DNA of 64,000 nucleotides, from NCBI RefSeq assembly GCF_038900055.1, contig NZ_JBBMQM010000001.1, positions 3,472,001 through 3,536,000 on the forward strand, read 5' to 3'. Under the pieces are notes generated by a model. That model ran no database searches and was not told the origin of the DNA. It saw nothing but the letters and a program-made list of their open reading frames with translations. Both the position numbers and the translations under genes were made by a program. Origin of the DNA: Henriciella sp. AS95 (GTDB lineage Bacteria; Pseudomonadota; Alphaproteobacteria; Caulobacterales; Hyphomonadaceae). Positions 5,998 through 48,612 of the stretch are shown piece after piece. Positions within the stretch are counted from its first letter, which is position 1, and each line of letters opens with the position of its first letter.

Positions 5998-6086
5998 CCT
6001 GTAACTGCAATTTCACGCGCCATCGCTTGAGCTTTGGCGGCAAGGTCATAGTGTCCCTTTCAAAGAACGTTTGAAGGGAGCCAGCC

Positions 6087-7007
6087 ATGCCGCGCATTGC
6101 CGCCAACGGGATCGAGATCGAATACGAAGAATACGGCAATCCATCCGATCCGATGCTGCTGGTCGTCTCCGGCTTTTCGGGGCAGATGATCACTTGGCCG
6201 GAGAGCTTCAAACAGGGTCTCGCCGAGGCTGGCCGCCGGGTCGTCATTTTCGACAATCGCGACATTGGCCTGACCACGGAGTTTGCCGACAAGATCCCGC
6301 CCTCCCCGCGCGACATCATGAAGGGTATCGCCGCCGGGGAGCCCATGCATGAACAAGTGCCCTACACACTCGATGACATGGCTGCCGATGCTGCTGCGCT
6401 GATCCAGGCGCTCGGCGCTGAGAAGGCCGACGTCATGGGCTTCTCAATGGGCGGCATGATCGTCCAGCTGCTTGCCCTGAACCACCCTGACCGCGTGCGC
6501 ACGCTGATCCCGGTCATGACAACATCCGGTGACCCGACCCTGCCGTCATCCACCGAAGAAGCCCAGAAAGCGCTGACGGCGGTTCCTGAAACGCGGGACG
6601 CCGAAACGATCGGCACACTCGCCGCGCAGTCCCGCCGCGTCATCGGCTCGCACGAAACCGTTCGAAATTCCGATGAGCAGACCAAGGCCATGGCGATGCG
6701 GGCCTTTGAACGCTCAGACCGCCCCATGGGCGTCGCGAGACAGTATGCGGCAATCCTGGCGCAGCCGCGCTGGCATCACCGTCTGCCCGGCCTCGACGTG
6801 CCAACCCTGGTGCTGCACGGCGCTCAGGACCCGCTGATCCGCCCCGCTGCCGGCCAGGATATCGCCGATCGCATACCGGGCGCCGAAATCGAGATCATAG
6901 ACAAATGGGGCCACGATCTTCCGGACAAGATGGTGCCGGTGCTGCTGAACCGCATCGTGCCTTTCCTCGGCAGACATGTACCAGAAGAGGCGCGGGCGGA
7001 CGCGTGA
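6087..7007 (+). CDS. Alpha/beta-fold hydrolase
   Basis: A 306-residue soluble hydrolase. The nucleophile elbow GFSMGG puts the catalytic Ser at residue 120. HGAQDPLI supplies the likely acid and KWGHDLP the histidine. AGGGAG precedes the start. The opening PRIAANGIEIEYEEYGNPSD is typical of esterase/peroxidase-like members of the fold. Its stop overlaps the next gene by an ATGA, and a crotonase-fold gene follows that, so the three may process a lipid or CoA-linked compound together. The substrate cannot be predicted. Confidence 0.85.
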   Translation: MPRIAANGIEIEYEEYGNPSDPMLLVVSGFSGQMITWPESFKQGLAEAGRRVVIFDNRDIGLTTEFADKIPPSPRDIMKGIAAGEPMHEQVPYTLDDMAADAAALIQALGAEKADVMGFSMGGMIVQLLALNHPDRVRTLIPVMTTSGDPTLPSSTEEAQKALTAVPETRDAETIGTLAAQSRRVIGSHETVRNSDEQTKAMAMRAFERSDRPMGVARQYAAILAQPRWHHRLPGLDVPTLVLHGAQDPLIRPAAGQDIADRIPGAEIEIIDKWGHDLPDKMVPVLLNRIVPFLGRHVPEEARADA

Positions 7008-22244: not shown

Positions 22245-22323
22245 CACTTCAGCAGCGGGCCTTGCGCGGCTCCATCATTGACCGCATTGTCCTGTTGAAA
22301 CTGGGCTATTCGGGATGATGATC

Positions 22324-34259: not shown

Positions 34260-35021
34260 GTGTTGCTGAGGCGCCTGAGCCAGCATGTAAAAAGCCAGAA
34301 CTGGTTCGCCGTCGCGCTCGATTTCGTGATCGTTGTGCTCGGTGTCTTCATCGGTCTGCAGATTTCAAACTGGAATGACGCCCGCGCCTTCGACCAGCTG
34401 GAGCGCAATTATCTCGTCCAGCTGAAGGACGAGGTCGCCCTGAACCGGCGGGTGACGGAATACCAGATCGTCTATGTCGATACCGTGGTCGAATCCGGGA
34501 AGCGCGCGCTCGTCTATCTTGAAAGCGACCAGCAATGCGAAGACGACTGCGCCGACCTGCTGGTCGATTTCTTCCATGCCAGCCAGGTTTGGGGCGCGCC
34601 GCGCACCCTGACGATTTTCGAGGAAATGGAACGGCTCGGCCTGCCGCGAGATGCTGAGAGGCGCCAGACGCTGCTGGACCTGTACCGCTTTCTCGAAGGC
34701 TGGGATGTCGTGAACCTGTCGCCGCCAGCATATCGGGAATCCGCACGCGGTTACTTCTCGCCCGAAGTGAGCGAGGCCCTGTGGCGCAATTGCATGAGGT
34801 ATCCCGATGGCGACGTCGAAGAGCTGGTGCGCGATTGCGTCGACGACTTGAGAGCGATGGATACTTCTGCAGTGCTTGAAGACATGCGCGCTTCGCCCGA
34901 CCTCGCCAATCATCTCCGGTTCTGGATCGGCCAGAATGTCACCGCGCAAGTCCTGTTGCCCGACGCACTTGGGTACTCTGACTCTGCTCAAGCGGCCATT
35001 GATGAGGCGCTTGCTCAATGA
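34260..35021 (+). CDS. Array paralogue 1 (founder-like, divergent N-terminus)
   Basis: 253 residues from a GTG. The N-terminus MLLRRLSQHVKSQNWFAV differs from the array consensus, but the membrane helix and GVFIGLQISNWNDAR signature align. Four cysteines (C93, C97, C178, C193) lie in the C-terminal domain. C93/C97, and blocks such as LVDFFHASQ and an EEM-x4-GLPR segment, match paralogue 16 at the far end of the array. The Met-proximal DNA lacks the common 5' cassette, so this copy may represent the ancestor or an entry gene. No promoter boxes are clear in the 100 bases upstream. Confidence 0.85.
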   Translation: MLLRRLSQHVKSQNWFAVALDFVIVVLGVFIGLQISNWNDARAFDQLERNYLVQLKDEVALNRRVTEYQIVYVDTVVESGKRALVYLESDQQCEDDCADLLVDFFHASQVWGAPRTLTIFEEMERLGLPRDAERRQTLLDLYRFLEGWDVVNLSPPAYRESARGYFSPEVSEALWRNCMRYPDGDVEELVRDCVDDLRAMDTSAVLEDMRASPDLANHLRFWIGQNVTAQVLLPDALGYSDSAQAAIDEALAQ

Positions 35022-35791
35022 TCCTCCAGCGCCTCGCCACCTCCATCCGCAAGCAGGACTGGTTCACCGTCCTCATCGAGACCCTCATCGTCGTGCTCGG
35101 CGTCTTCCTTGGTATCCAGCTTGGCAACTGGAATGCCGCGCGGGCCGAGCAACGGCTGGCGGAAAGTTACACCGTCCGGCTCATCGCTGATCTTGAGCAG
35201 GATTTGTCTGCTTCCCGAAGGCTGACCAGCTATTATGACGCCGTGACGCAGAGCATTGTTGATGCCGACAGGATGTTGTCGCTGACCGATCCGGACCCCA
35301 AAGCGCTCATCGTCGCGGCCTACAGGGCAAGTGAGTTCACGTACACCCCAAAGAGACGCGCAACCTGGGACCAGATTGTCTCATCCGGCGATCTCGACCT
35401 CCTGCCGAACGACATGATCGCTAGCGGTCTGTCCGACTATTACAAATTCGACGAAGCCGCAGACGACACGATATCGCGCCTTCAAGACACGCCGTACAGG
35501 CTAAGCGTGCGGTTCCTCGTGCCCTTGCCCATCCAACTCGAGATCCGGGACGGGTGCAGTGATGACATCGAAGAGAACTCGAATATCAACGGTTTTGTCG
35601 CCGAGTGCCGGATCGCGGTCGACGATTCGCTGCTGGAGGACACAGCTAGCGCCTTGCTGGAGTCCAACGACTTGCAGAAGGCGCTACGCTACCAGTACTC
35701 GATGGTCGCGGCGGTGCAGGTCAACAATCGCGGCGACGTTTTCGCTCTGAACCAGCTGCTGGCTGCGCTCAAGGAAGAGACAGCCCCATGA
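35018..35791 (+). CDS. Array paralogue 2 (type A, class II cysteines)
   Basis: 257 residues. First 18 residues MILQRLATSIRKQDWFTV, then a helix ending GVFLGIQLGNWN (type A). The C-terminal domain has DPDPKALIVAAYRASEF and RATWDQIVSSGDLDLLP, shared with paralogues 9 and 11, and cysteines at 180 and 197. It begins in an ATGA overlap with paralogue 1. The basic N-terminus predicts that residues after about 40 are periplasmic. Confidence 0.87.
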   Translation: MILQRLATSIRKQDWFTVLIETLIVVLGVFLGIQLGNWNAARAEQRLAESYTVRLIADLEQDLSASRRLTSYYDAVTQSIVDADRMLSLTDPDPKALIVAAYRASEFTYTPKRRATWDQIVSSGDLDLLPNDMIASGLSDYYKFDEAADDTISRLQDTPYRLSVRFLVPLPIQLEIRDGCSDDIEENSNINGFVAECRIAVDDSLLEDTASALLESNDLQKALRYQYSMVAAVQVNNRGDVFALNQLLAALKEETAP

Positions 35792-36573
35792 TCCTCCAGC
35801 GCCTCGCCACCTCCATCCGCAAGCAGGACTGGTTCACCGTCGCGATTGAGACGCTGATTGTGGTGTTCGGTGTGTTTATCGGTTTGCAGGTGAGTAACTG
35901 GAATGAAGCTCGAAATGAGCGGATTGAGGAACGGGATATTTTCAAGCGTCTGATCTTGGAAGGTGCTGCGGAAGAGGCCGAACTTGTTCGTCATCGCGCC
36001 TATCACGTGAACAATCTCGGCGAAATCGCCGAGTTGGTTGCACGGCTTGAAGATCCGGAGCGATGTGGCGATTACTCAAGCGAGTCCAGCAAGCGGGTTT
36101 TGCTCTCCATCGGCGATTTTCCTGAGCCAAGGTTAGCTTTCTCAACGGCGCGCGAGCTTGTCTCAACTGGCCGGATTGCGCTTGTGTCATCTGATGAGGT
36201 CAGGATTGGGTTACAAGCGACGCTTGTGCAGGCGGAATGGATCGAAAGAGCGTGGCAGAGATATTTGCCCCTGAAACAAGCAGCCGAGGATGTCTACATG
36301 GCCGCGGGCCCCGCCTACACCAATCCAATCGAATGGACCCTCGACTATGACCTACCGTATGAGGACTTCTTAAAGTCCGTGGAGCTCCGCACGCCAGATA
36401 AACTCTGTAACCGGCCAGACCTTGTCGCCCTCGCATCGAATGCGGCGACCAGCCAGGCGTTCTATGTTGCGAAAATAAACGTGCTGGCTCGCAAGTTATC
36501 GGCTTACCGCGCTGAGCTATCGGCAACTGCGGAAGAACGGTTTGGATCGGAATTTGTCGGAGAGGCCCCATGA
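35788..36573 (+). CDS. Array paralogue 3 (type B)
   Basis: 261 residues. The membrane helix ends GVFIGLQVSNWNEAR (type B). Its C-terminal domain has C93 and C207, LLSIGDFPEPRLAFSTA and AWQRYLPLKQAAED, all closely paralleled at the same residue numbers in paralogue 5. Paralogues 2-3 and 4-5 therefore look like one A-B pair duplicated. DNA beyond the 5' cassette is less GC-rich than in its neighbours. Confidence 0.87.
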   Translation: MILQRLATSIRKQDWFTVAIETLIVVFGVFIGLQVSNWNEARNERIEERDIFKRLILEGAAEEAELVRHRAYHVNNLGEIAELVARLEDPERCGDYSSESSKRVLLSIGDFPEPRLAFSTARELVSTGRIALVSSDEVRIGLQATLVQAEWIERAWQRYLPLKQAAEDVYMAAGPAYTNPIEWTLDYDLPYEDFLKSVELRTPDKLCNRPDLVALASNAATSQAFYVAKINVLARKLSAYRAELSATAEERFGSEFVGEAP

Positions 36574-37352
36574 TCCTCCAGCGCCTCGCCACTTCCATCC
36601 GCAAGCAGGACTGGTTCACCGTCCTCATCGAGACACTGATCGTCGTGCTCGGCGTCTTTCTCGGTATCCAGCTCGGCAACTGGAACGAGTCGCGCGCCGA
36701 CCTGCGCAGGGGCGCTGAATTCACCGAGCAGCTGCGTGAGGACCTGCGAATGGAAGCCTGGGGCTATGCGCGCCTCATCGAGTACAATACCGACGTACTC
36801 GCGGCCGCCGAAGCGGCGGTCAGCGCACTCGAAGGCAACAGCGAACTCTCAGACGAGGCTCTCCTGATCAATGCCTATGTCGCCACGCAATACCTCAATC
36901 ATCATCGTAGCAACGCGACTTATGAAGAAATCAAGTCAACCGGTGCGATGGGACTGGTTGCGGACAAGGACCTGCGCGACCTTGCAGCAAGGATGTACAC
37001 GACTCCCATTTTTACGGTGATCCAGCAGGAAGGCGCTCAGTCCACGTACCGCGCGAGGTTCAGAATGATCGTCCCGAGCCAAGTCCAGTCCGCGCTCGCA
37101 AGGGCCTGCGGTGACCTGGTCGGGGAACGGGGAAATTTTGAGCAGATAAAGGACATGATTGGATATCCCTGTGAGACCGGACTGGCGCCGGATGTCATTG
37201 CCCGGTCTGCGGCGATCCTGCGGTCAGACGACCTCCTCCTTCAGGAGCTGCGACGGCGGGTGTCGGACCTCAAGACCGCGCTCGGCAACCTGCTGCAGAA
37301 CAGTGAGGATATTCTCGAAGGTCTGCGCAGCCTCGTGGAGGAAATGCCATGA
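36570..37352 (+). CDS. Array paralogue 4 (type A, class II cysteines)
   Basis: 260 residues. Type A helix (GVFLGIQLGNWNESR). The C-terminal domain is related to paralogues 2, 9 and 11 but more diverged: SNATYEEIKSTGAMGLVADK replaces the TWDQIVSSG block, and cysteines fall at 180 and 201. Ends with a helix LKTALGNLLQNSEDILEGL. ATGA overlaps at both ends. Confidence 0.87.
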   Translation: MILQRLATSIRKQDWFTVLIETLIVVLGVFLGIQLGNWNESRADLRRGAEFTEQLREDLRMEAWGYARLIEYNTDVLAAAEAAVSALEGNSELSDEALLINAYVATQYLNHHRSNATYEEIKSTGAMGLVADKDLRDLAARMYTTPIFTVIQQEGAQSTYRARFRMIVPSQVQSALARACGDLVGERGNFEQIKDMIGYPCETGLAPDVIARSAAILRSDDLLLQELRRRVSDLKTALGNLLQNSEDILEGLRSLVEEMP

Positions 37353-38128
37353 TCCTCCAGCGCCTCGCCACTTCCATCCGCAAGCAGGACTGGTTCACCG
37401 TCCTCATCGAGACGCTGATCGTCGTCTTCGGCGTGTTCATCGGTCTGCAGGTGAATAACTGGAACGCCGAACGGGAGGCCCGCGCCGACGCCGATGACCT
37501 GCTGGCGCGCATGCGGGTCGAGGCGCAAGAGGCGCAGACAGACATGGCTGAGTATCAATCCCAGCACGCCCTTATTCTGGACCGGGCGATCCGATTTTCC
37601 GTCCGCCTGACTGAAATAGAGCGCTGCCTCGCCATGGACGACGAAACAAAGGAGCTACTCCTGTCAGTGGGTGACTTCCCGCCGCCGCGCTTTTCGCTCG
37701 CGACGGCCAGTGAAGCCATCGGCTCAGGGCATCTGGCGGTCGTTGGCTCTGAAAATGTCCGTGAAGAGGTGCGCCGGATCATAGACGAGATGACCTTCAT
37801 GGACAGGCAGTGGCAGCGTTACATCAGGATCAAGCAGGACACCGAATCGGCGATCTACACCGCTTCGGGGCTTAGCCTGACAACCGATGAAACACTTGAG
37901 TTTGATCCGGGCGACGATATGTGGGCCGGTCTGGACCAGTTTCGCCTGCAGACCCCGGAAGGCGTTTGCGGCAAACCGCAAATGATCGCCTTCGCCTCCA
38001 ACGCCGCAGCCACGCAGCACGTCTACACGCAATACATCGAACAGGTGTCGGACAAGCTCGATGCCTATGCCGCGCTTCTGGCGGGCGAGGCCGGAACGAC
38101 GCATGAGACAGGCGAGGCCGCCCCATGA
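37349..38128 (+). CDS. Array paralogue 5 (type B)
   Basis: 259 residues. Type B helix (GVFIGLQVNNWNAER). C93 and C207 coincide with paralogue 3; LLSVGDFPPPRFSLATA and RQWQRYIRIKQDTES repeat its landmarks. The start region could form a 6-bp hairpin, GGAGGA (37337-37342) with TCCTCC (37353-37358), enclosing the ATG and hiding the ribosome-binding site until the upstream gene is translated. Confidence 0.87.
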   Translation: MILQRLATSIRKQDWFTVLIETLIVVFGVFIGLQVNNWNAEREARADADDLLARMRVEAQEAQTDMAEYQSQHALILDRAIRFSVRLTEIERCLAMDDETKELLLSVGDFPPPRFSLATASEAIGSGHLAVVGSENVREEVRRIIDEMTFMDRQWQRYIRIKQDTESAIYTASGLSLTTDETLEFDPGDDMWAGLDQFRLQTPEGVCGKPQMIAFASNAAATQHVYTQYIEQVSDKLDAYAALLAGEAGTTHETGEAAP

Positions 38129-38853
38129 TCCTCCAGCGCCTCGCCACCTCCATCCGCAAGCAGGACTGGTTCACGGTCCTGATCGAGACGCTCATCGTGG
38201 TTCTCGGTGTCTTCCTCGGTCTCCAGCTTGGCAACTGGAATGAGGCGCGGCTGACGGACACCCAACGTGAACTTATCGAGACTCGCCTGCTGAATGATTT
38301 CGTGCTGATGCATGAAGATGTGATTGCGGCGGCTAAAGGCCATGCCGCCATCATAGAATCCCTCCACGTGCTGCGGGGAGCGATCGAGCGCGGGCAGGCC
38401 TTTTCCGAGGAAGATGCCGCGATCAAACAGGCCCTTATGCGGGGGTTCAGCTACCAGTCTCCTATCCACCGCTCCGGCACGTTTCTTGAGCTTCTGTCCA
38501 GCGGACAACTGGAGCTGATCTCCGATGAGGAGCTGCGCGTCGCTCTGTTGCGCTATGACACGCGGGCGCAGCGCGTGCTGTTCAATCTCGACCAGATCAG
38601 AAACTACATGCACACGAACATGCCCAATCTCAATGCGTACAAGGATCCAGCGCCGCTAACCCGGGACGAGCATGGACGGATCGTTCTGAGTCCGGTCCAG
38701 GGATACGACATTGAGGGGATGGCAAGTGACCAGGCGTTTCGCGATGCTTTGGATCTGCTGATCGAAAACCAGACCTGGATCCAGATCAACATCGCCGGTC
38801 AGGAGGATGCGCTGGAGGACGTGCTTGTCGTTCTGCGGGAGCCGACACCATGA
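38125..38853 (+). CDS. Array paralogue 6 (type A, no cysteine)
   Basis: 242 residues, one of two copies without any cysteine. Helix ends GVFLGLQLGNWNEAR. The C-terminal domain has the array-wide pattern ELLSSGQLELISDEELRVAL followed by LLRYDTRAQRVLFNLD, but otherwise resembles no other copy closely. ATGA overlaps at both ends. Confidence 0.86.
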   Translation: MILQRLATSIRKQDWFTVLIETLIVVLGVFLGLQLGNWNEARLTDTQRELIETRLLNDFVLMHEDVIAAAKGHAAIIESLHVLRGAIERGQAFSEEDAAIKQALMRGFSYQSPIHRSGTFLELLSSGQLELISDEELRVALLRYDTRAQRVLFNLDQIRNYMHTNMPNLNAYKDPAPLTRDEHGRIVLSPVQGYDIEGMASDQAFRDALDLLIENQTWIQINIAGQEDALEDVLVVLREPTP

Positions 38854-39557
38854 TCCTCCAGCGCCTCGCCACCTCCATCCGCAAGCAGGACTGGTTCACC
38901 GTGCTCATTGAGACGTTGATCGTGGTGTTCGGCGTCTTCATCGGTCTGCAGGTCAATAACTGGAATGCGGAGCGCCACGGCCGCCTCGACGAACAGGCCC
39001 TGATTGGACGGCTGGCGGACGAGTTCACGACCCTCGAAACGGTTGTCCTGCAACGCACGGAACGCGCCGAACGGCTCGTCGCGGACACGGCCGAGCTGAT
39101 CGAGTGTGTCAGGCAGGACGAGGTGCCTGCGGACGAGGCGCGGACGAAGGACATGCTCCGCGTCGCCCTGCTCCTGTACAATGGGCAGGTGCCACCCCCG
39201 ACGTCTTTTTCCGATGCCCTGCAATCGGGCCGGATCGGCAGTCTCAGAAATGACGCGCTGAGGCAGGCGCTCTATGACTACCAGATCTCGACCGACTGGT
39301 GGTCGACCGTTCGCGGTCCCGCCCCGTCCCAGATCGACCCCGATTCCAGGCTGAGTCAGGCCGTCACACAATCGGCAGAGAAGACGCGAGAGGGGTCGAT
39401 ACGGCCCGAAATTCTGAGCTACGACTGGGAAAAGGTGCGCGAGGCCGAGCGCGAACTGGTCGCCATTCATCACCACCAGGCCCTGCAGGCCGAAGCCTAC
39501 CGCCTTGAACTGGCGGAGATCCGGCAGGTCATCGCCGTACTGGAACAATCGCCATGA
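38850..39557 (+). CDS. Array paralogue 7 (type B, shortest)
   Basis: 235 residues, the shortest full copy, with a single cysteine (C86). Helix ends GVFIGLQVNNWNAER. The shared C-terminal landmark appears as SDALQSGRIGSLRNDALRQA. A histidine run HHH lies near the C-terminal helix (ELVAIHHHQALQAEAYRLEL). The lone cysteine breaks the paired pattern seen in most copies. Confidence 0.86.
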   Translation: MILQRLATSIRKQDWFTVLIETLIVVFGVFIGLQVNNWNAERHGRLDEQALIGRLADEFTTLETVVLQRTERAERLVADTAELIECVRQDEVPADEARTKDMLRVALLLYNGQVPPPTSFSDALQSGRIGSLRNDALRQALYDYQISTDWWSTVRGPAPSQIDPDSRLSQAVTQSAEKTREGSIRPEILSYDWEKVREAERELVAIHHHQALQAEAYRLELAEIRQVIAVLEQSP

Positions 39558-40297
39558 TCCTCCAGCGCCTCGCCACCTCCATCCGCAAGCAGGACTGGTT
39601 CACCGTCCTCATCGAGACGCTGATTGTGGTGCTGGGTGTGTTCATCGGTCTGCAAGTGAATAACTGGAACGAGACGAGACGCGAGCGCGCCTTTGAGGCG
39701 CAGATCATGGAGCGTCTCAACAACGAAGTGCCGGCGCTGATAGCGACGCGGTCAGCGGAGCGCGGTTTCACTGCCCACCGGAAGGCCGCGCTTGACACCG
39801 CCCTGGTCAAATTGTTCGCGCCCGGCAGTGATGAAGAACTTACAGATATGGAATGTCTGGCGATTGCGCTGTCGCACATCTATCCGCGTTCGCCCGATGA
39901 TTTGACGGTGCTGGATGAGCTCAAATCCACCGGCCGCATCGACATTATTCGCGATGCCAACATCCGCGCAGCCCTGTCCGGTTTCGTGCTGGCGCGCGAC
40001 GAGGGTCGCTCAACGCAGAGCGCTGTCAGCATCGACCTGCATCAACTCCCTGCCGAGTTTCATGACTTGTTGCAATCTTCGTTTGAGCCAGCCCCGGGCG
40101 AGAGCCTTGAAGACGCAGATGCGAGTTATAGTTGCGATACGGCCGGCATGCGCCAAGATCGGGCGTTTCTGACTAAGCTGGTCATCAATCGCCAGCGCCT
40201 CAAAACCTATTTCAAGACGGAATTCGAGGACGTGGACGCAACGCTCCAGACCTTGCGCGTCGCTATTTCTGGAGAGCGGGGGCAGACCGCCAGATGA
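39554..40297 (+). CDS. Array paralogue 8 (mixed type)
   Basis: 247 residues. The helix combines type A VVLGVF with type B IGLQVNNWN, as though recombined. C101 and C194 match paralogue 13 almost exactly, as do LDELKSTGRIDIIRDANIRA and YSCDTAGMRQDRAFLTKL, so 8 and 13 form a C-terminal subfamily although they carry different N-terminal variants. Confidence 0.87.
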   Translation: MILQRLATSIRKQDWFTVLIETLIVVLGVFIGLQVNNWNETRRERAFEAQIMERLNNEVPALIATRSAERGFTAHRKAALDTALVKLFAPGSDEELTDMECLAIALSHIYPRSPDDLTVLDELKSTGRIDIIRDANIRAALSGFVLARDEGRSTQSAVSIDLHQLPAEFHDLLQSSFEPAPGESLEDADASYSCDTAGMRQDRAFLTKLVINRQRLKTYFKTEFEDVDATLQTLRVAISGERGQTAR

Positions 40298-41076
40298 TCC
40301 TACAGCGACTTGCCACCTCCATCCGCAAACAGGACTGGTTCACCGTCCTGATCGAGACGCTGATCGTGGTGCTTGGTGTCTTCCTCGGTATCCAGCTTGG
40401 TAACTGGAATGCGGAGCGAGCCAATGCCAAGCTTGGCGAAGAGTATGTCAGCCTGCTCGCCCGCGAAACACAGGTGAACCTTGAAGGGACAAAGTCGCAG
40501 GCCGCCTATTACGATGCTGTCCTCGACAGCGTCATTCGCACAGACGAGTTGCTGCGCCAGACAGACCCGGACCCGCGTGATCTCATCGTCAACGCCTACC
40601 GGGGGACCGAGGTTTCCTACATTACCCCGGAGCGGGCCACCTGGGACCAGATTGTCTCCTCCGGCCATCTCAGCCTGTTGCCAAAAGACGCGGTCGAGTC
40701 CGGCCTTTCACAATTCTACGCCTTCGATACTGCGCAGGATATGTATCAGCTCGGTCTCAAGTCCACTTACCGCGTCACCGCGCGGCAGATCATTCCCATG
40801 CATATGCAAATTGCGATGCGGGAGACGTGCAGCGATCTTCGAGACGATGAGGGGAATATCCTCGGCTTCATGGATAGCTGCGATTTCGACGCTGATCCTG
40901 CTGAGATAGAGGCCGTCGCACTCGCCCTTCGCAGCGACCCCGCCGTCGCTGCCACACTGACCTATCATTACTCCATGGTTGTATCGGCGAAACTCAACCT
41001 GGGCGGTGTTGCAACATCGCTTGAGGATGCCCTCGCGCGACTTGGTTCGCCCGCGACACCGGAGGCGGCCCCATGA
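40294..41076 (+). CDS. Array paralogue 9 (type A, class II cysteines)
   Basis: 260 residues. Helix ends GVFLGIQLGNWNAER. The C-terminal domain has DPDPRDLIVNAYRGTEV, RATWDQIVSSGHLSLLP and cysteines 179 and 196, placing it with paralogues 2 and 11. Its 5' cassette has a few synonymous changes (CTACAGCGACTT), making it slightly less uniform than the others. Confidence 0.87.
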   Translation: MILQRLATSIRKQDWFTVLIETLIVVLGVFLGIQLGNWNAERANAKLGEEYVSLLARETQVNLEGTKSQAAYYDAVLDSVIRTDELLRQTDPDPRDLIVNAYRGTEVSYITPERATWDQIVSSGHLSLLPKDAVESGLSQFYAFDTAQDMYQLGLKSTYRVTARQIIPMHMQIAMRETCSDLRDDEGNILGFMDSCDFDADPAEIEAVALALRSDPAVAATLTYHYSMVVSAKLNLGGVATSLEDALARLGSPATPEAAP

Positions 41077-41198
41077 TCCTCCAGCGCCTCGCCACCTCCA
41101 TCCGCAAGCAGGACTGGTTCACCGTCCTGATCGAGACGCTGATCGTGGTGCCCAACGACATCGACATCCACCCTCTCCAAGGAAGGAAAACCCCATGA
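41073..41198 (+). pseudogene. Truncated array paralogue: 5' cassette only
   Basis: The first 78 bases (41073-41150) are the array consensus, encoding 26 residues to TLIVV. The sequence then becomes unrelated and runs to a TGA at 41196-41198, giving 41 residues. The membrane helix is cut in half, so this is probably not a functional paralogue. Its stop overlaps the next gene's ATG, and it may act as a leader that keeps translation moving through the operon. The breakpoint lies inside the shared block. Confidence 0.85.
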
Positions 41199-42253
41199 AA
41201 TTTCTCGCGGCCTGCGTGACTTTGAGCCTGGTGACGGCCTGTGCGCACACTGATGAAATCCCGCCCACACCCGAATGGACATTCTCAGGCGAGAGTATGT
41301 TCTTTCCCAAAGACCGATCTCTGACGCATGCAGAGGATGGTGTGGTGCTCGCTGATGGAACCTTGCTGGTCGGAGATTGGGACCACGGATTGGTGGCTCT
41401 TTCTCCAGACGGGGCGAAACGTCCCTTCGGCGATTTTGCCGGCGCCGGGTTCAAGACCAAGCCTGCACCTGATTGGGGAAGCCCCAACGGCATTTCGTTC
41501 GAACCTGACGGGCGGCATGTGCTGGTCGCGGACATTACGACGGGTTCGATTTATCGCGTCGATAGCCAAACCGAAGCCACGAAACGCCTTTATGATCATC
41601 CGTATGGAGTGAATTCCGTTGTCCGGGATTCAACGGGCGCGGTCTGGTTCACACAATCGACCGAAAATCCGGAAGGCGACGGCTCCGAAGCGCGCATGTT
41701 CGCGGCGGTCGACGGAATGGGTGACGGGGCGGTTTTTCGCATCGCGCCGGATGAAGTCGGCAAGGCTGAGCCCATCGCGACGCCCATGGTAACAGGTCTT
41801 GATTTCGCAAATGGGATCGTGGCGGATGAACGCCGGGGCCGTCTTTATGTCAATGAAATCTCGGCCAACCGTGTCCTGAGTTTCCCTGCCGATTTTGCCA
41901 ATGGCACTCTCGGAGACCAAGAGGTTCTTGCGACGATTGTCTCCCCTGACAATGCCGAACTTGATGAAGACGGCAATCTGTGGATCGCCTCCCCTTTCGG
42001 CAATGAAGTGGTGATCATCAATCCAGATACCGGCGATGTTACGCCTGTTTTCCAGCCGACGCCCGAAGCCAGCGCTGTGGTCAAGGCGGAAGTCCTCCGC
42101 AGGGTCGAGGCAGGTGAACCCGTCCTGCCTCTGCTGAGCCCCGACGTCTGGGGCCCTATGCCCGGACTTGTGACCGGGGTCATCCTGTCGCCCGATAACG
42201 GTCCTGTATATATCTCAGGCCTGGGCGATGCGCTCGTCAAGCTGGATAGATAA
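41195..42253 (+). CDS. SMP-30/gluconolactonase-like lipoprotein embedded in the array
   Basis: A 352-residue exported protein unrelated to the array family. Lipoprotein signal at residues 1-16 (lipobox VTAC). Beta-propeller repeats follow: LVADITTGSIYRVDSQTE, FANGIVADERRGRLYVNE and ELDEDGNLWIASPFGNEV, typical of SMP-30-like lactonases. It has its own ribosome-binding site AAGGAAGG at 41179-41186 inside the tail of the truncated copy. It is the only gene in the run followed by a gap (4 bases) instead of an overlap. Substrate unknown. Confidence 0.83.
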   Translation: MKFLAACVTLSLVTACAHTDEIPPTPEWTFSGESMFFPKDRSLTHAEDGVVLADGTLLVGDWDHGLVALSPDGAKRPFGDFAGAGFKTKPAPDWGSPNGISFEPDGRHVLVADITTGSIYRVDSQTEATKRLYDHPYGVNSVVRDSTGAVWFTQSTENPEGDGSEARMFAAVDGMGDGAVFRIAPDEVGKAEPIATPMVTGLDFANGIVADERRGRLYVNEISANRVLSFPADFANGTLGDQEVLATIVSPDNAELDEDGNLWIASPFGNEVVIINPDTGDVTPVFQPTPEASAVVKAEVLRRVEAGEPVLPLLSPDVWGPMPGLVTGVILSPDNGPVYISGLGDALVKLDR

Positions 42254-42257
42254 CACC

Positions 42258-42995
42258 ATGATCCTCCAGCGCCTCGCCACCTCTATCCGCAAGCAGGACT
42301 GGTTCACCGTCCTGATCGAGACGCTGATCGTCGTGTTCGGTGTCTTCCTCGGTATCCAGCTCGGCAACTGGAATGAGGCTCGGCAGGATCAGTCAGGCCT
42401 GCTCAGTGCTGTCGACCGTCTGAAGGGAGAGGCCGAGCTCAATCTGAAAATCGCCGATGGCGTGATCGAGCGTATTGATGATTTCGAAGACGGCCGGATC
42501 GCCGCAATGCGGGCCATTTCATCCTGCGATGCCAGCGAGGAGGCGCAGCGAGGTGTCGAAAGCGCCATTGAGGAAATGATGTCTGATCTCTCGCCCGAAC
42601 TTGTCGATTTCAGTCTGACGGAGCTTGGCCGCCGGGACGAGTATCTCGACAGGCTGTCAGATGAGTTCCGCGAGGCGATGAACACCTATCAGGGCGATCT
42701 GGCGGAGGAGAAATCAGCGCTCGCCTCGAACAATGTCCTGCTTTGGGATCAGCATGTGATCAAGCACCCCGCAATTGGGGCTGAGTTTACGCCCGACGAT
42801 CCGGAAACGTCCACAGTGCTGAAGCTACGGGTGCCGCTGGCCGAACTTTGCCTGGACGCTGAATTTCAACGGGAGTTCGCGGTCACCGCTGGCTTTGTCG
42901 AGTCCACGAAACTCCGCCTCAAGCGCTTCCAGACCCGGACACGAGATTATCTGGACGCCCTGCAGGACGAACAGGCGAGGCTCGACGCCAGATGA
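42258..42995 (+). CDS. Array paralogue 10 (mixed type)
   Basis: 245 residues from the ATG at 42258, chosen because it begins the conserved cassette. The helix mixes type B VVFGVF with type A LGIQLGNWNEAR. Cysteines at 90 and 198. The C-terminal domain is highly helical and acidic (SSCDASEEAQRGVESAIEEM), and the usual SxGxL landmark is degenerate (DFSLTELGRRDEYLDRL). Confidence 0.85.
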   Translation: MILQRLATSIRKQDWFTVLIETLIVVFGVFLGIQLGNWNEARQDQSGLLSAVDRLKGEAELNLKIADGVIERIDDFEDGRIAAMRAISSCDASEEAQRGVESAIEEMMSDLSPELVDFSLTELGRRDEYLDRLSDEFREAMNTYQGDLAEEKSALASNNVLLWDQHVIKHPAIGAEFTPDDPETSTVLKLRVPLAELCLDAEFQREFAVTAGFVESTKLRLKRFQTRTRDYLDALQDEQARLDAR

Positions 42996-43765
42996 TCCTC
43001 CAGCGCCTCTCCCAATCCATCCGCAAGCAGGACTGGTTCACGGTCCTCATCGAGACGCTGATTGTGGTGCTGGGTGTGTTTCTCGGTATCCAGCTCGGCA
43101 ATTGGAACGAGGCCCGCGCGGGCCAGCGGCTGGGCGAGGAGTATGTGGAACGGCTGATTGTCGACCTGCGCGCTGATCTTCATGGCGCGCAGAACCTTGC
43201 TCACTATTACGCAGAAGTTCTCGAAGCCGTTATCGAGACCGACCGGCTGCTGTCGCTGCCCGATCCGGACGCCAAGGCCCTCGTCATCAATGCCTACCGC
43301 GCCACTGAAATCGCGCTATGGCCGCAGAGTAAGGCGACGTGGGAGCAGATCGTCTCATCCAGCCATCTCAGCCTGTTGCCTGACCGCGTCGACCTGGAGC
43401 CGCTGAACCTCTATTTCGGCTATGATCAGGCCTATGAGTCCTATGAGGTGCTCGAGAATTCAGACTATCGCAAGGTGGTGCGATCGATCATTCCAATCAC
43501 CGTGCAAATGGAAATCCGTGCGGGCTGTAGCGACATCTTGGATGAGAACGGGAGTGTGAGGGGCTTCGTTGATCCATGCGTCGTCGACGTGCCGCCAGAC
43601 GTCTTCGCCGCCACGGCTGAGCGCCTGAAATCGGACAGCCGGGTGATCGAAGCGCTCGGCTTCCAGTTTTCAGAGCTGCAGAGCGCCCTCAACAATCTCA
43701 CAGGCAATGTCGACTACATCGAGAAGTCGATCAGCACTCTTTCTGACATCGAGGCTCCCGAATGA
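42992..43765 (+). CDS. Array paralogue 11 (type A, class II cysteines)
   Basis: 257 residues. The N-terminus reads MILQRLSQSIRKQDWFTV, the SQ echoing paralogue 1 (RRLSQHV). Type A helix. C179 and C196 with DPDAKALVINAYRATEI and KATWEQIVSSSHLSLLP assign it to the subfamily of paralogues 2 and 9. ATGA overlaps at both ends. Confidence 0.87.
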   Translation: MILQRLSQSIRKQDWFTVLIETLIVVLGVFLGIQLGNWNEARAGQRLGEEYVERLIVDLRADLHGAQNLAHYYAEVLEAVIETDRLLSLPDPDAKALVINAYRATEIALWPQSKATWEQIVSSSHLSLLPDRVDLEPLNLYFGYDQAYESYEVLENSDYRKVVRSIIPITVQMEIRAGCSDILDENGSVRGFVDPCVVDVPPDVFAATAERLKSDSRVIEALGFQFSELQSALNNLTGNVDYIEKSISTLSDIEAPE

Positions 43766-44514
43766 TCCTCCAGCGCCTCGCCACCTCGATCCGCAAGCAG
43801 GACTGGTTCACCGTCCTGATCGAAACGCTGATCGTAGTGTTCGGCGTGTTCATCGGTCTGCAGGTCAACAACTGGAATGAGGCGCGGGCTGACGGCGTGG
43901 CTTATGACGAAGCCCTCATCCGCTTCGAGGCCGAGATCGAGCGGAACGCCGCCGAGCTGGAACGCGTCATCGCTGACCTTGCCATATCCCTTCCGCGTGC
44001 CGAGGCGGCGATCGAGACCCTTCAGGCTTGCAACGACGCCGATGGGGCAAAGGCGTTGATCGACGAAGCGATGCGATCGGCGCGGGGAACAGCAAGCATC
44101 CGGATGCGACGCGCCTCCCTCGATGCCCTCACAAGCGACCCGATTTTGCTGTCGCAGCAGACCAGCGCGGAGCGTCAGCGCTTTTCGGATCTCGCTTTCA
44201 TGTTCGACCTGTTCGAGGTCGAGGCGGACTGGGCGGAGTTTCACCCACTCGACATTCCCATCGAGAACGTGCCCGTTCTCGGTATCGGCACGCCGCTGCC
44301 GCCACGTGAGACCGAATATGCAGGGCGGACGTATCAGTGGAACAAGAGCTATCCGCTTGTGCTTGCAGCGCCGCTTTCGGAGGCCTGCGAACAGGGCGAT
44401 CTGATCAAGGCGCTGTTTTCCTGGCACCGCTGGCAGAACAATCTGACACCTCTTTCAGTGGGCGTGTTGGAAGAGCTCAAGGCGACCAAAACACTGCTGG
44501 AGGAGAGACGATGA
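43762..44514 (+). CDS. Array paralogue 12 (type B)
   Basis: 250 residues. Helix ends GVFIGLQVNNWNEAR. Cysteines at 90 and 209, the first in a position equivalent to paralogue 10. The middle of the domain is distinctive, with PLDIPIENVPVLGIGTPLPP, suggesting an inserted loop. It ends in an ATGA overlap with a non-paralogous membrane protein gene. Confidence 0.86.
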   Translation: MILQRLATSIRKQDWFTVLIETLIVVFGVFIGLQVNNWNEARADGVAYDEALIRFEAEIERNAAELERVIADLAISLPRAEAAIETLQACNDADGAKALIDEAMRSARGTASIRMRRASLDALTSDPILLSQQTSAERQRFSDLAFMFDLFEVEADWAEFHPLDIPIENVPVLGIGTPLPPRETEYAGRTYQWNKSYPLVLAAPLSEACEQGDLIKALFSWHRWQNNLTPLSVGVLEELKATKTLLEERR

Positions 44515-44999
44515 CCCTCGAACAGGCCGCCCTCGTTGCGCAGATCGTCGGTGTGGTGGTCGTCGCCGCCACCCTCATCTACCTCGCCATGCAGGTGCAT
44601 CAGGGCGCGCGGCAGATGCGCTCCGAAGCCCGGCAGGCGCAGCTCACCTATGATCAGACGGGCGTCTACAAATTCGTCGACTTCCCCGAGCTTGGCCGCA
44701 TCTTCTCGCAGACCGAAACACCCAGCTTCGAGGAGAAGACCAAGCTCTTCTTCTGGATGATCGGCCAGATGCGGGCACGCGAATATGAGTGGCTTCAATA
44801 CCAGAACGGCGCGATCACAAAGGAGTCCTGGGAGACCTATCGGGGCGTGATCTATTTCGTCCTGGGCACTGAGAGGGGCCGCGCACTCTGGGAGGTCTGC
44901 AAAGGCTATTTCAATCCAGGCTTCGTCGAGACCGTAGCGGCGATGATGACGGGCGTGCCGCCAATCGACCTTTGGGACCAGCTGCAGGCAATCGAATGA
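44511..44999 (+). CDS. Single-helix protein inside array, not a paralogue (DUF4760-like)
   Basis: A 162-residue protein. One N-terminal membrane helix (about residues 8-27, AQIVGVVVVAATLIYLAMQV) is followed by a helical soluble part (MRSEARQAQLTYDQTGVYKF, MIGQMRAREYEWLQYQNGAI). The form resembles DUF4760-type proteins. It lacks the array's 5' cassette but keeps ATGA overlaps on both sides, so it is translated with the array. Its topology mirrors that of the paralogues. Confidence 0.75.
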   Translation: MTLEQAALVAQIVGVVVVAATLIYLAMQVHQGARQMRSEARQAQLTYDQTGVYKFVDFPELGRIFSQTETPSFEEKTKLFFWMIGQMRAREYEWLQYQNGAITKESWETYRGVIYFVLGTERGRALWEVCKGYFNPGFVETVAAMMTGVPPIDLWDQLQAIE

Positions 45000-45757
45000 T
45001 CCTCCGCCGTCTCACCACCGCGTTTCGCAAGCAGGACTGGTTCACCGTGGCGGTGGAGACACTGATCGTGGTGTTTGGCGTGTTTCTCGGTTTGCAGGTT
45101 CAGCAATGGACGCTGGAGCGCGCCCGCAAGGATGGCGAAAGCGCATATCTCATCCGTCTCCACGGCGAGACCGTTCAGCTGCTCGACCGGCGCGCGAGCT
45201 ATGACCAGAGCCGCACGACTTTTTCCGCCGACCTCGTCGCCGCCGTCAGGGTCTTGCAAGACACGTCCGCCGGTTCCGCATTGTCCCAGGCCCAGTGCGA
45301 CGCCATTGCCGGCTCGTCTCACACGACCGTCCCCCCGGTCGACCTTCCAACCATCACCGAGCTGTTATCGACGGGCCGGCTTGACCAGATCAGCTCGCAG
45401 GCGATGCGTACCAGCATTCTGAACCTCACCCAGGATGCGGCCAGTGCCCGCGATCTCATTCAGCTCATCAGCGAGGAAAACCAGAATCTGGGCCGCGCCT
45501 TTCCGGCCCTCATGCGCTATGAACTCGGCGCTCCAGCCTTCGAACAAGACGATTACTGGCTCAGTCCCGATTGCGACACTGACGGCATGCGGGCAGATCC
45601 GGCTTTCCTGAACGCGCTGATCGACAACACTTACATGTACAACGTCTACACCGGGCGAGGAGTCCTGCCGGTCAGCCAGCGCGTGAAGGAGTTGCATGAC
45701 GTCCTCGACGAGACGCTGGGCATTACCCATGCGAGCGAAGCCGGGGCGCAGCCATGA
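44996..45757 (+). CDS. Array paralogue 13 (diverged cassette)
   Basis: 253 residues. The N-terminus MILRRLTTAFRKQDWFTV and the helix end GVFLGLQVQQWTLER differ from the consensus in both protein and DNA, second only to paralogue 1. C101 and C193, ITELLSTGRLDQISSQAMRT and SPDCDTDGMRADPAFLNAL match paralogue 8. The diverged cassette suggests this copy has escaped recent exchange with the others. Confidence 0.86.
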   Translation: MILRRLTTAFRKQDWFTVAVETLIVVFGVFLGLQVQQWTLERARKDGESAYLIRLHGETVQLLDRRASYDQSRTTFSADLVAAVRVLQDTSAGSALSQAQCDAIAGSSHTTVPPVDLPTITELLSTGRLDQISSQAMRTSILNLTQDAASARDLIQLISEENQNLGRAFPALMRYELGAPAFEQDDYWLSPDCDTDGMRADPAFLNALIDNTYMYNVYTGRGVLPVSQRVKELHDVLDETLGITHASEAGAQP

Positions 45758-46524
45758 TCCTGCAGCGCCTCGCCACCTCCATCCGCAAGCAGGACTGGTT
45801 CACCGTCCTCATCGAGACGCTGATTGTTGTGCTCGGTGTGTTTCTCGGTCTCCAGCTCGGCAATTGGAACCAGGAGCGTGGTGATCGGGAGCGGGAGGTA
45901 CAGATCGTGGCGGACCTGCTTGCCGATCTGGAAACGGCGCGCGTCGAATACGCCAATGGGCTTGAATTCGGACTGCGCCGGATCAGCGCCGCCAATGCCT
46001 CGCTCACAGGGGCAGGATTGGCGCCAATCGAGATCGAGTTTGACATGTCCAATACAAGCCTCGTTGAATACGAGACCGCGACCGAGGACGCCGAAGGCAC
46101 ATCAATCGGTGATCCGGAGCTCATATGGACCGATGTGGTGATGGGCTACTATCCGACGCCGAGCTCCGCCGCTTATGATGCGATTGTCGGGTCGGGTGAC
46201 ATCAACATCATCCGCGACCGGAACCTGGTACGCCAGCTCATGTTGTACCGGGCCCGGAGCCTCGGCGTTGAAGCGCAGAACGCAAAGATCCTGCCGATCC
46301 GGGCCGAAGTCATGCGCATCGGCATGTCCTATGGTCTCGCGCCGTATGGCCGCGTGTCCAAAGATGAGTACCTCGCCCTCATTGCCGGTGAACCGGAACT
46401 GGCTGCCGCGATACGCTTGCAGGGCGCTTTTTCCGTGTTCCACTATGGGGACATCAAGAGCGCCGACGCGCGGGCCGCCGAACTAGAAGCGAGTCTCGAG
46501 GCATATCTGGAGGACAGGCAATGA
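45754..46524 (+). CDS. Array paralogue 14 (type A, no cysteine)
   Basis: 256 residues without cysteine. Helix ends GVFLGLQLGNWNQER. The C-terminal domain begins with a long helix (VQIVADLLADLETARVEYAN), then an acidic stretch, and the array landmark appears as IVGSGDINIIRDRNLVRQLM. It has no close partner among the other copies. Confidence 0.86.
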   Translation: MILQRLATSIRKQDWFTVLIETLIVVLGVFLGLQLGNWNQERGDREREVQIVADLLADLETARVEYANGLEFGLRRISAANASLTGAGLAPIEIEFDMSNTSLVEYETATEDAEGTSIGDPELIWTDVVMGYYPTPSSAAYDAIVGSGDINIIRDRNLVRQLMLYRARSLGVEAQNAKILPIRAEVMRIGMSYGLAPYGRVSKDEYLALIAGEPELAAAIRLQGAFSVFHYGDIKSADARAAELEASLEAYLEDRQ

Positions 46525-47285
46525 TCCTCCAGCGCCTCGCCACCTCCATCCGCAAGCAGGACTGGTTCACCGTCCTGATCGAGACGCTGATCGTCGTATT
46601 CGGTGTCTTCTTGGGTATTCAGCTCGGCAACTGGAACAAGGCCAACACCGACAAGGCAACCGAGCGCCAGATCCTGTCGCAGGTGCAAGCTGATGTCGAA
46701 GCGGCGGTAGCATTGAAGGCTGAATGGCTGGCCTCAATCACGGCACATCGTCAAAAACTGATTGAAGCGATCGACATTGTTCAGAACGAGCCTGAAACGG
46801 AGATGTTGGCCGATGAGGCGTGTCGCGCGATGTGGTCGTCCCACCTTCTGTTCTATCCGGTCGCGCCACTTGGCTCTCTGGATGAACTTCTGGACCGAGG
46901 CGGTCTTCACACGTCCAGGGCCAGAGCCCTGCGACCAGCTTTGCTGACATATCGCGATCACCGTGAGGTCATTCGGCAGCTCAACACTTCTCTGACCGGC
47001 CTTGCCAATCTGGGCGATACGTATAGCGATGCCTTTCCGCGCCGCGTGATGTCCCCAACCACGCGTGAGGCGGCTGTGATTGATCCAGCCGAAAAGCACG
47101 CCGCACGAGTTACCGATGCGACGTTTCAAACCGCATGCGTGCTGGACGTGATACGCGCCGATCAGACGATCCAGAACAAGTTACTGAGTAATCTCGCACG
47201 CACCGATGGTGTTTTGCAGCGCGTCATCATCGAGCTTTCAGCGCTGGAGAAAATTGAGGCGGATTTACTGGAGACCGCCCCATGA
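46521..47285 (+). CDS. Array paralogue 15
   Basis: 254 residues. Helix ends VVFGVFLGIQLGNWN, a mixed form, followed by KANTDKATERQ where most copies have an Arg-rich turn. Cysteines at 101 and 206. Landmark LDELLDRGGLHTSRARALRP. The start region can pair GGAGGA (46509-46514) with TCCTCC (46525-46530), enclosing the ATG. The coding DNA beyond the cassette is less GC-rich than in neighbours. Confidence 0.86.
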   Translation: MILQRLATSIRKQDWFTVLIETLIVVFGVFLGIQLGNWNKANTDKATERQILSQVQADVEAAVALKAEWLASITAHRQKLIEAIDIVQNEPETEMLADEACRAMWSSHLLFYPVAPLGSLDELLDRGGLHTSRARALRPALLTYRDHREVIRQLNTSLTGLANLGDTYSDAFPRRVMSPTTREAAVIDPAEKHAARVTDATFQTACVLDVIRADQTIQNKLLSNLARTDGVLQRVIIELSALEKIEADLLETAP

Positions 47286-48043
47286 TCCTCCAGCGCCTCG
47301 CCACTTCCATCCGCAAGCAGGACTGGTTCACCGTCCTGATCGAGACGCTGATCGTCGTGCTCGGTGTGTTTCTCGGTCTCCAGCTCGGCAACTGGAACGA
47401 GGCGCGAGCGTCGCGGGCGCAGGAGACCGAACTTCTACAGGCACTTCATCAGGAAATCGAGACGGGCATCCGCCTCACCGAACAGAAAGTCGATGCCATT
47501 CGCCAGGTCGTCAATGCCGGCAAGCGGTCCCTTGCCTTCCTTGAAGCCGGCGAGAGCTGCGGGGACGCGTGCTGGCCGATCCTGGTTGATTTCTTTCACG
47601 CCTCCCAATGGCAATCCATCGAGGTCGACCGGTCGACCTTTGACGAGATGCGCCGGCAGGGCTTTCCGCGGTCGCGGGAGATCATCGATGCCGTTGAAGG
47701 CTATCTTGCCCAGAACGCTACCCTGGCGATCACCAACATCCTGCCCGCCTATCGCTCTCGCGTGCGCCAGCTCATTCCGCTGGATGCGCAGGAGTTCTAC
47801 TGGAACAATTGCTATTTTCTGGACGATGGCGCGGAAACCTACGACCTCGACTGCCCGAAAGGCGTCAGCGATGAGGCTGCCGCGCGCGCCGTCCAGAATA
47901 TCGCCGATACGCCCGATATTGCCCTCCTCCTCACCGAATGGGCAGGTCTCCACAGCGCCACGCCGGCCGATCTTGAGGAGCAGAACAAGGCTGCAGCGCG
48001 CGCTCTGGAAGTCATAGAGGCTGAACTGGCGCGGCGCCGATGA
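47282..48043 (+). CDS. Array paralogue 16 (C-terminal partner of paralogue 1)
   Basis: 253 residues. The cassette and helix are array consensus (GVFLGLQLGNWNEAR), yet the C-terminal domain is that of paralogue 1: C93 and C97 at identical positions, C177 and C191, AGKRSLAFLEAGESCGDAC, LVDFFHASQ and FDEMRRQGFPRSRE. The same C-terminal type therefore brackets the array while being joined to two different N-termini, a strong sign of exchange at the cassette. Confidence 0.87.
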   Translation: MILQRLATSIRKQDWFTVLIETLIVVLGVFLGLQLGNWNEARASRAQETELLQALHQEIETGIRLTEQKVDAIRQVVNAGKRSLAFLEAGESCGDACWPILVDFFHASQWQSIEVDRSTFDEMRRQGFPRSREIIDAVEGYLAQNATLAITNILPAYRSRVRQLIPLDAQEFYWNNCYFLDDGAETYDLDCPKGVSDEAAARAVQNIADTPDIALLLTEWAGLHSATPADLEEQNKAAARALEVIEAELARRR

Positions 48044-48612
48044 CCGGTTTCGACCTCGTCCTCCTGCTCCTCTCCTTCGTCTATGCGCTGGCGCTCGGGC
48101 ACCTTCTGTCGCGGCTCGGCGCGCTGCTGGTGGCACGCGACCGGGTGCGCTTCTCCGGCCTTCTCGCGCTCGCCATGCTGAATGCCGTGACGCAGGTCTA
48201 TATCGGTTGGCTCGCCATGTGGGACTTTCGCGACGTCGAGAGCTGGGATCTCTACACGATCACCCTCTTCCTCCTGTCGGCCATCCTGATTTATCTGATG
48301 TGCGTCGCCGCATCGCCGGAAACGCCGGACAACGAACCCGTCGACATGGAGGCGTTCTACTGGTCCAATCACCGGCTCTTCTACGGCCTCTATCTGGGCC
48401 TGCTCGGCACCTACATCGCGATGACGGCCGTCTATCTGATGACGCCGACGCCGGAGCTGGCGGTGCAACAGTCTCTCGGCAATGTACCCTTCATCCTCAC
48501 CAGCCTTCTTGCGATCTTCATCTCCGCCCGCTGGGCGCAATGGATGGCGGGCCTCCTGATGTTTTTTATGTCGGCCGGCTGGGCCATCATCTTCAGCCAC
48601 ACGCTCGGCTGA
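48040..48612 (+). CDS. Integral membrane protein at end of array
   Basis: A 190-residue protein with about five hydrophobic helices (residues roughly 4-25, 42-63, 72-92, 110-135, 145-185). It overlaps paralogue 16 by an ATGA and ends the co-directional run. It is not an array paralogue and no family was recognised. As the only multi-pass protein in the operon it could be a membrane partner of the paralogues, which is inference from position. Confidence 0.78.
   Translation: MTGFDLVLLLLSFVYALALGHLLSRLGALLVARDRVRFSGLLALAMLNAVTQVYIGWLAMWDFRDVESWDLYTITLFLLSAILIYLMCVAASPETPDNEPVDMEAFYWSNHRLFYGLYLGLLGTYIAMTAVYLMTPTPELAVQQSLGNVPFILTSLLAIFISARWAQWMAGLLMFFMSAGWAIIFSHTLG

Follow-up and report, generated by a model that had tools for sequence, protein, structure and literature searches.

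Integron arrays hold interchangeable units that carry a short common DNA element and are exchanged horizontally, and in the contact-dependent inhibition (CDI)/Rhs toxin tails with their orphan modules, a constant upstream part is followed by an exchangeable downstream part. The lpl lipoprotein cluster of Staphylococcus aureus is composed of tandem paralogues of anchored exported proteins. We analysed a 64,000-nucleotide stretch of the genome of the marine bacterium Henriciella sp. AS95 (the window), in which 16 tandem paralogous genes related to the uncharacterised Pfam family DUF6090 (PF19578) lie in a coupled run at positions 34260 to 48612. Each of these genes, called a cassette below, consists of a short, nearly constant 5' coding segment (head) and its own remainder (tail). 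The array resembles integrons in effect, whereas the element that its units have in common is itself coding and lies at the start of each gene. No integrase was found among 13 frames of the window and seven frames of relatives in general Pfam scans, which included no dedicated IntI or attC search, and the 4-base coding overlaps at 18 of the 19 junctions left no intergenic space for attC, folded sites within coding sequence not having been searched. Unlike CDI/Rhs loci, the array contained no toxin/immunity pairs, as paralogue follows paralogue and the only foreign frames encode an SMP-30-like protein, a companion membrane protein and the last membrane protein; each cassette is a complete gene that has a start of its own, and all lie in a single coupled run. 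The lpl cluster differs in family and phylum; on the side of the array stand ATGA coupling, DNA-level homogenisation of heads and horizontally shared tails.

The earlier note on this DNA, made from the letters alone, had described a run of 20 consecutive forward frames with ATGA overlaps at all junctions except one, holding 16 full-length DUF6090-like paralogues and one truncated copy. This description was borne out, the extent of the run even to the base, and the full-length paralogues measure 235-261 aa. The sole junction without overlap is a 4-base gap between the end of the SMP-30-like gene and the following cassette. The truncated copy is a frame of 41 codons that ends in a TGA overlapping the start codon (ATG) of the SMP-30-like gene. 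This gene is one of the remaining three frames; the second encodes a small, unrelated membrane protein and the third another, different one. The fifteen near-identical starts of 18 residues proved to be those of 14 full-length genes, one of them with two changes, and of the truncated copy (stub), while the leader (34260) and the gene at 44996 have heads of other kinds. The word amplification did not hold. Tail identity (residue 46 on, 120 pairs among the 16 genes) had a median of 22% and a maximum of 41%, several tails have their own orthologues in other species, and the likeness is limited to the heads; amplification of one gene was thus rejected. An assembly artefact is unlikely, since no two tails are alike (at most 41% identical pairwise), so that there are no near copies for an assembler to have multiplied. 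A foreign island of deviating GC content was also rejected (0.597 in the array, 0.604 in the rest of the window). The earlier interpretation as a whole was partly supported.

The first 54 bases were nearly identical in DNA in 14 of the 16 genes, and this likeness faded over codons 19-39. Where two genes encoded the same residue, they used the same codon at a frequency of 0.89 in codons 2-18, when compared with 0.47 expected from codon usage. The frequency was 0.66 in codons 19-24 and 0.60 in codons 25-39 (expected 0.49), and stayed at 0.36-0.38 across codons 40-200, the background being reached from codon 40. The uniformity of head codons was not a general 5' effect, as 14 unrelated frames of the window, drawn from the open-reading-frame list and not from the annotation, gave 0.43 in codons 2-18 (100 pairs).

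Further loci were collected by a scan for two head motifs, from which the best 80 of 137 matches yielded 75 loci, some contigs repeating genomes already fetched. The protein set built from these comprised 325 genes (109 genes and 216 ATG-start genes of 225-285 aa from other fetched loci); contigs fetched twice (L036, L044, L045, L050, L080, L088 and L098) were left out, and L066 and L067, which have genes in common, were both kept. The codon comparison left out the same duplicates except L088. At least three head dialects (QDW, QNW and QEW) were distinguished, sometimes mixed within one array. Among 32 array or dialect sets of at least four genes, head codons were more uniform than tail codons in 31 (means 0.67 and 0.39), and more uniform than codons 25-39 (mean 0.61) in 21. 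A ten-gene array of Marinicella (L075), with 1-base overlaps at seven of its nine junctions, showed almost no homogenisation of heads (0.40, versus 0.38 in the tail) and offers a natural contrast case.

Heads and tails were compared separately between orthologous cassettes of different genomes, with the tail taken from nucleotide 121 to the end. The genomes G005 and G006, of two Henriciella species, have three cassettes in common, the tails of which differ by 0.5%, 0.8% and 2.1%. In the pair L019_8136/L020_4089 the heads differed by 14.8% against 0.8% for the tails (Fisher, 1.8e-6), and in the neighbouring pair L019_7363/L020_4838 by 9.3% against 0.5% (2.6e-4). Five substitutions in the head, at positions 18, 19, 25, 27 and 28, recurred identically in both cassettes, and either genome may hold the altered heads. 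As two neighbouring genes thus share five identical substitutions in front of nearly identical tails, heads are overwritten within a genome. Between the leader of the window and its G012 orthologue, head divergence was 27.8%, as against 6.7% for the tail (p 7.9e-6). Moreover, the 59 T-type heads of Henriciella were more alike within a genome (identity 0.910) than between genomes (0.850), a difference reached in none of 2000 label permutations, while their tails did not cluster by genome (0.32 within, 0.33 between). The head of a cassette located elsewhere in the window's own genome (L032) was 97% identical to heads of the window, and equally to one head of G004.

Selection on re-initiation or membrane insertion could in principle keep heads uniform without any recombination. 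The head protein sequence is indeed conserved throughout the family, and re-initiation is plausible because Shine-Dalgarno-like 4-mers precede 169 of the 325 starts, when compared with a background of 12%. Such selection does not account for the absence of 5' codon uniformity in the unrelated window frames, nor for the fall to 0.60 over codons 25-39, many of which are equally invariant in protein. Head alleles also differ between genomes and change together at synonymous and nonsynonymous sites, and the paired five-site change in G005/G006 puts a strain on this explanation, which we consider quite improbable.

The tails, in turn, are exchanged horizontally between species. Divergence was expressed as the proportion of synonymous differences (pS) and compared with that of two core genes, the BipA/TypA gene at 28634 and an unnamed frame at 22315, one of which is missing for G007. 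Between the window's own genome (G000) and G004 the core values were 0.48 and 0.52, and those of the tails 0.11, 0.17, 0.37, 0.43 and 0.51. For G005 and G006 the core gave 0.46 and 0.55 and the tails 0.02, 0.02 and 0.07, and for G007 and G025 a tail gave 0.05 versus 0.34 for the one core gene. The blocks that the window has in common with G004 and G012 were mostly a single tail with the next head, after which a different cassette followed. The cassette after tail D, for example, is a different one in each of G000, G004 and G012, the same holds for tail E, and after tail G comes either H or A; with G008 the window has in common cassette I and the companion gene next to it. The order was partly kept: D opens the arrays of G000, G004 and G012, A closes those of G000, G004, G007 and G025, and C-P-F recurs in G001 and G017. 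All 13 between-genome tail pairs tested were under purifying selection, with ratios of nonsynonymous to synonymous substitution (dN/dS) of 0.08-0.31.

Copy number differed at one and the same site. Family members were found in 18 of the 29 Henriciella genomes compared, with 1 to 19 matches each, and the HAD-hydrolase gene flanking the array (33455) in six. In the interval from this gene to the frame at 50000, 16 cassettes were counted in G000 and three each in G025 and G007, those of G007 accompanied by a GNAT gene and a companion gene, while G002, G024 and G008 have none (the 5.7 kb of G008 at this site are unannotated). Identical arrays in all relatives, which the earlier note had set against its own reading, were thus not what the survey of copy number and order returned. 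Nine other arrays were retrieved together with their flanks (L016-L020 and L022-L025), and seven of them lay near one shared type of gene, which we take from its motif to be dihydroorotase-like, and L032 is the one cassette that G000 keeps at this second site. The shifting membership and the range from 0 to 16 copies at the first site also bear on the idea of a fixed hetero-oligomeric machine, in which the cassettes would be non-interchangeable subunits of one membrane assembly. The tight translational overlap, the shared helix with its conserved acidic residue and small-residue motif, and the recurrent companion membrane proteins would fit such a machine; with the variation in copy number and membership, we regard it as rather improbable.

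Arrays of at least three cassettes occurred in 36 of the 75 fetched loci and of at least five in 23, shares that are no unbiased frequency because the loci were chosen by head motifs and some contigs were duplicated. They include loci of Hyphomonas, Parvularcula, Erythrobacter, Lysobacterales, Wenzhouxiangella and Marinicella. The junctions in these loci were 4-base overlaps in 151 of 186 cases and 1-base overlaps in 20. The array had been called unusual, which is right in that 16 copies are the top of the range seen, and less so in view of how many of these head-motif-chosen loci hold arrays. In the family-wide count, made with the same kind of profile as the locus scan, 46 of 91 genomes gave a match.

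We propose a head-anchored cassette array, whose unit is a coding repeat of 54-72 bp, the head, together with its own tail. The head begins exactly at the ATGA overlap and encodes the positively charged N-terminus and the first part of the membrane helix, so that one repeat would serve as start signal, membrane anchor and recombination site. Since the heads are alike, ordinary homologous recombination between heads is possible, probably of the RecA type; it would copy head sequence to neighbours and add, drop or exchange tails. Every product would be an intact, translationally coupled gene and, as the placement of the head keeps start, anchor and coupling in order, the array would behave as a library that gains, loses and swaps tails without being broken. 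This genomic mechanism is, in our judgement, highly probable. The combined statement, that the locus is a head-anchored cassette array presenting a periplasmic recognition repertoire, is fairly probable, because the mechanism carries most of it.

The constant head, the variable tail and the copying of head sequence would also suit antigenic variation from silent cassettes, where one expressed gene is fed by donors. All 16 copies, however, have a start codon in an unbroken frame; after the leader, 14 of the 15 overlap the preceding stop by four bases and one follows four bases on. No separate expression site was seen and the copied part is the head, not the tail, which makes silent cassettes highly improbable. 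The head-anchored array would be co-expressed. Between 34000 and 49000, two promoter-like sites (3.9 expected) and 12 terminator-like sites (10.2 expected) were found, none of them convincing.

Several observations weigh against the head-anchored array. Codons 25-39 were as uniform as codons 2-18 or more so in 11 of the 32 sets, and the set L040 showed no excess of the head over the tail, so the homogenised tract varies. The third cassette common to G005 and G006 showed no head difference, the excess of head divergence was significant in only three of 13 orthologue pairs, and one pair had a deficit (3.7% in the head, 15.0% in the tail, p 0.024). Among 43 genes with a close tail orthologue, the head of a paralogue matched better in 17, that of the orthologue in 18, with eight ties, in a comparison biased toward paralogues by taking the best of several. 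The case for overwriting hence rests on the paired change and the clustering by genome, not on this count. The head of L032 was equally close to one head of G004 (0.972). As for the tails, the DNA common to G005 and G006 is a 5.7 kb block at 95.7% with flanks at 70-91%, and that common to G001 and G017 an 8.4 kb block at 85.9%, neither being one cassette. On the functional side, the fold comparison described below yielded only generic helical bundles.

With the cassette library as the preferred explanation, a widely found family of unknown function gains a clear genomic logic. It suggests that plain homologous recombination on a coding repeat, set exactly at the point of translational coupling, could be enough to operate a cassette library with no recombinase dedicated to it. 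Two leads to the job of the family emerge, namely the second unnamed membrane family beside the cassettes and the conserved acidic residue in the membrane helix.

Across the 325 genes, the net charge was +2.3 before and -1.3 after the membrane stretch, and the number of Cys residues in the tail was even (0, 2 or 4) in 315. The charge pattern and the even Cys counts suggest that the tail is periplasmic and bears disulphides. Residue 21 within the membrane helix was D or E in all 325 genes, and G28, G32 and Q34 were conserved in 325, 299 and 311, respectively, the counts for residue 21, G28 and Q34 belonging to a feature list that was not taken from Pfam. The alignment-based structure prediction for gene 35018, the single tail modelled, had a mean predicted local distance difference test (pLDDT) score of 94.8. 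The model consists of a helix from 15 to 87, a distal helical part and a returning helix at 219-255; the first helix would exit the membrane and join the helical domain. Together with the purifying selection on the tails, these features support the suggestion of the earlier note that the array is a repertoire of variable periplasmic domains.

Foldseek gave no match to the model at E<=0.001, and no convincing solved relative was found by sequence, the best being a designed three-helix bundle (E 0.05). The natural folds listed for the model include ligand-binding domains of chemoreceptors, none above the level of generic bundles; the periplasmic domains of chemoreceptors and sensor kinases (MCP2201, Tar, Vc1313 and Adeh_2942) had Z scores within the generic-bundle range, where designed bundles reached up to 11.2. 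The cassettes have no sequence match to these receptors and, as modelled, gene 35018 would end at the helix 219-255, unlike chemoreceptors with their second membrane helix and cytoplasmic signalling domain.

The products of the array would be proteins of the inner membrane, each exposing to the periplasm a different helical domain stabilised by disulphides. They might be held in a common complex by the shared helix with acidic residue 21, G28, G32 and Q34, and a companion membrane protein that faces the cytoplasm would often belong to it. Recognition of diverse periplasmic ligands or targets would be their most likely job, a role that we put forward tentatively. Going further, the head repeat may be a natural cassette-exchange platform that unites a re-initiation site, an anchor for the common complex and a recombination site for trading tails between species, the cassettes forming, with their companions, split receptors as an exchangeable repertoire of periplasmic sensing or protection across proteobacteria. 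In this full extent the idea is speculative and rather unlikely to hold.

The same placement in the periplasm would suit a stack of immunity or exclusion proteins collected horizontally, each tail blocking a different periplasm-acting toxin or step of phage injection. Presence/absence polymorphism, horizontal exchange and the coupled run of many variants are in line with it. Known anti-phage defence was rejected as none of 88 aligned members matched a PADLOC model at E<=0.01, and Pfam found no toxin family in 19 of the 20 window frames (all except the stub). Cargo of phages or plasmids was likewise rejected, since plasmid sequences gave no match and, of 39 candidate stretches from viral contigs, not one could be confirmed. 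Against PHROGs, the 88 members gave two weak spanin-like matches and one to an unnamed family. As the tails also form one alignable family under purifying selection, we find an immunity stack unlikely.

Gene 44511 represents a second family with one membrane helix, for which no convincing Pfam or NCBIfam match was obtained; judged by eye from its charge pattern, its C-terminus is probably in the cytoplasm. The association of this companion family with the cassettes is real. In the fetched loci, which were chosen for cassettes, 41 of 62 companion matches had a same-strand cassette no more than 300 nt away, or 34 of 52 on a recount without ten matches from duplicate contigs. In whole Henriciella genomes, 20 of 29 companion matches were within about 2.5 kb of cassettes as judged by eye and nine were not; in G000 all four copies were near cassettes. 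One stretch of G008 (L022) holds six companion copies and six cassettes.

The assignment to DUF6090 was right in kind and weak in score, with 20.7 bits for gene 35018 against the PF19578 cut-off of 23.5. Gene 42992 (25.5 bits) was the sole paralogue of the 16 above this cut-off, which the L032 copy also cleared. Among ten proteins scanned, gene 35018 and four others matched below 23.5 and the remaining ones were unmatched; at E<0.01, 44 of the 88 aligned members matched, 14 of them from the window. The PF19578 model detected one of 143 genomes of the class, that of the window, and none of 14 controls. DUF6090 has the same membrane-helix motif as the cassettes (acid, VV, G...G.Q..NW) and several database relatives are named 'DUF6090 family protein', while arrays and head exchange are no part of what the Pfam name covers. 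No paper naming the family was found in a search limited to open-licence literature.

Table 1. Frames of the cassette array in the window, in order along the forward strand.
Feature	Position	Strand	Remark
Leader cassette, GTG start, N-type head (QNW), tail cluster D	34260..35021	+	Orthologues lead the G004 and G012 arrays
Cassette 2, T-type head, single structure modelled	35018..35791	+	
Cassette 3, T-type head	35788..36573	+	
Cassette 4, T-type head	36570..37352	+	
Cassette 5, T-type head, tail cluster E	37349..38128	+	
Cassette 6, T-type head	38125..38853	+	
Cassette 7, T-type head	38850..39557	+	
Cassette 8, T-type head	39554..40297	+	
Cassette 9, T-type head	40294..41076	+	
Head stub, about 76 nt of head then unrelated sequence, stop/next start ATGA	41073..41198	+	
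Passenger gene, SMP-30/gluconolactonase-like (PF08450)	41195..42253	+	
Cassette 10, T-type head, tail cluster G	42258..42995	+	pS 0.11 to G004 orthologue versus core 0.48-0.52
Cassette 11, T-type head, tail cluster H, above Pfam DUF6090 cut-off	42992..43765	+	
Cassette 12, T-type head, tail cluster I, companion gene next here and in G008	43762..44514	+	
Companion family gene, one membrane helix, probably N-out/C-in (charge pattern by eye)	44511..44999	+	
Cassette 13, T-type head of another allele (nearest: L049, L026, L018, 90-93% over 72 nt)	44996..45757	+	
Cassette 14, T-type head	45754..46524	+	
Cassette 15, T-type head	46521..47285	+	
Cassette 16, T-type head, tail cluster A, also last in G004, G007 and G025 arrays	47282..48043	+	
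Last frame, several hydrophobic stretches (by eye), no family match	48040..48612	+	84% orthologue closes the G025 array at the same site

The G004 array (L016) includes at 6084-6944 a membrane protein of 287 aa with a distantly similar start and no Pfam or NCBIfam match. In a fragmented genome the contig L029 ends within a head (3561-3674), and L030 ends about 60 bases past a short head frame (6202-6384), as expected if heads confuse assemblers. The head stub of the window, which over 76 nt was 98.7% identical to the head of the cassette at 46521, is coupled by ATGA to the SMP-30-like gene, an arrangement that looks like the capture of a foreign gene behind a head; at E<=1e-40 this passenger was found in one of the 29 Henriciella genomes, the window's own. 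A similar stub in L024 (6913-7053) adjoins a peptidase gene. The stub of the window was also 97% identical over 76 nt to a Hyphomonas head (L046:12248), and head alleles themselves may thus be spreading between genera.

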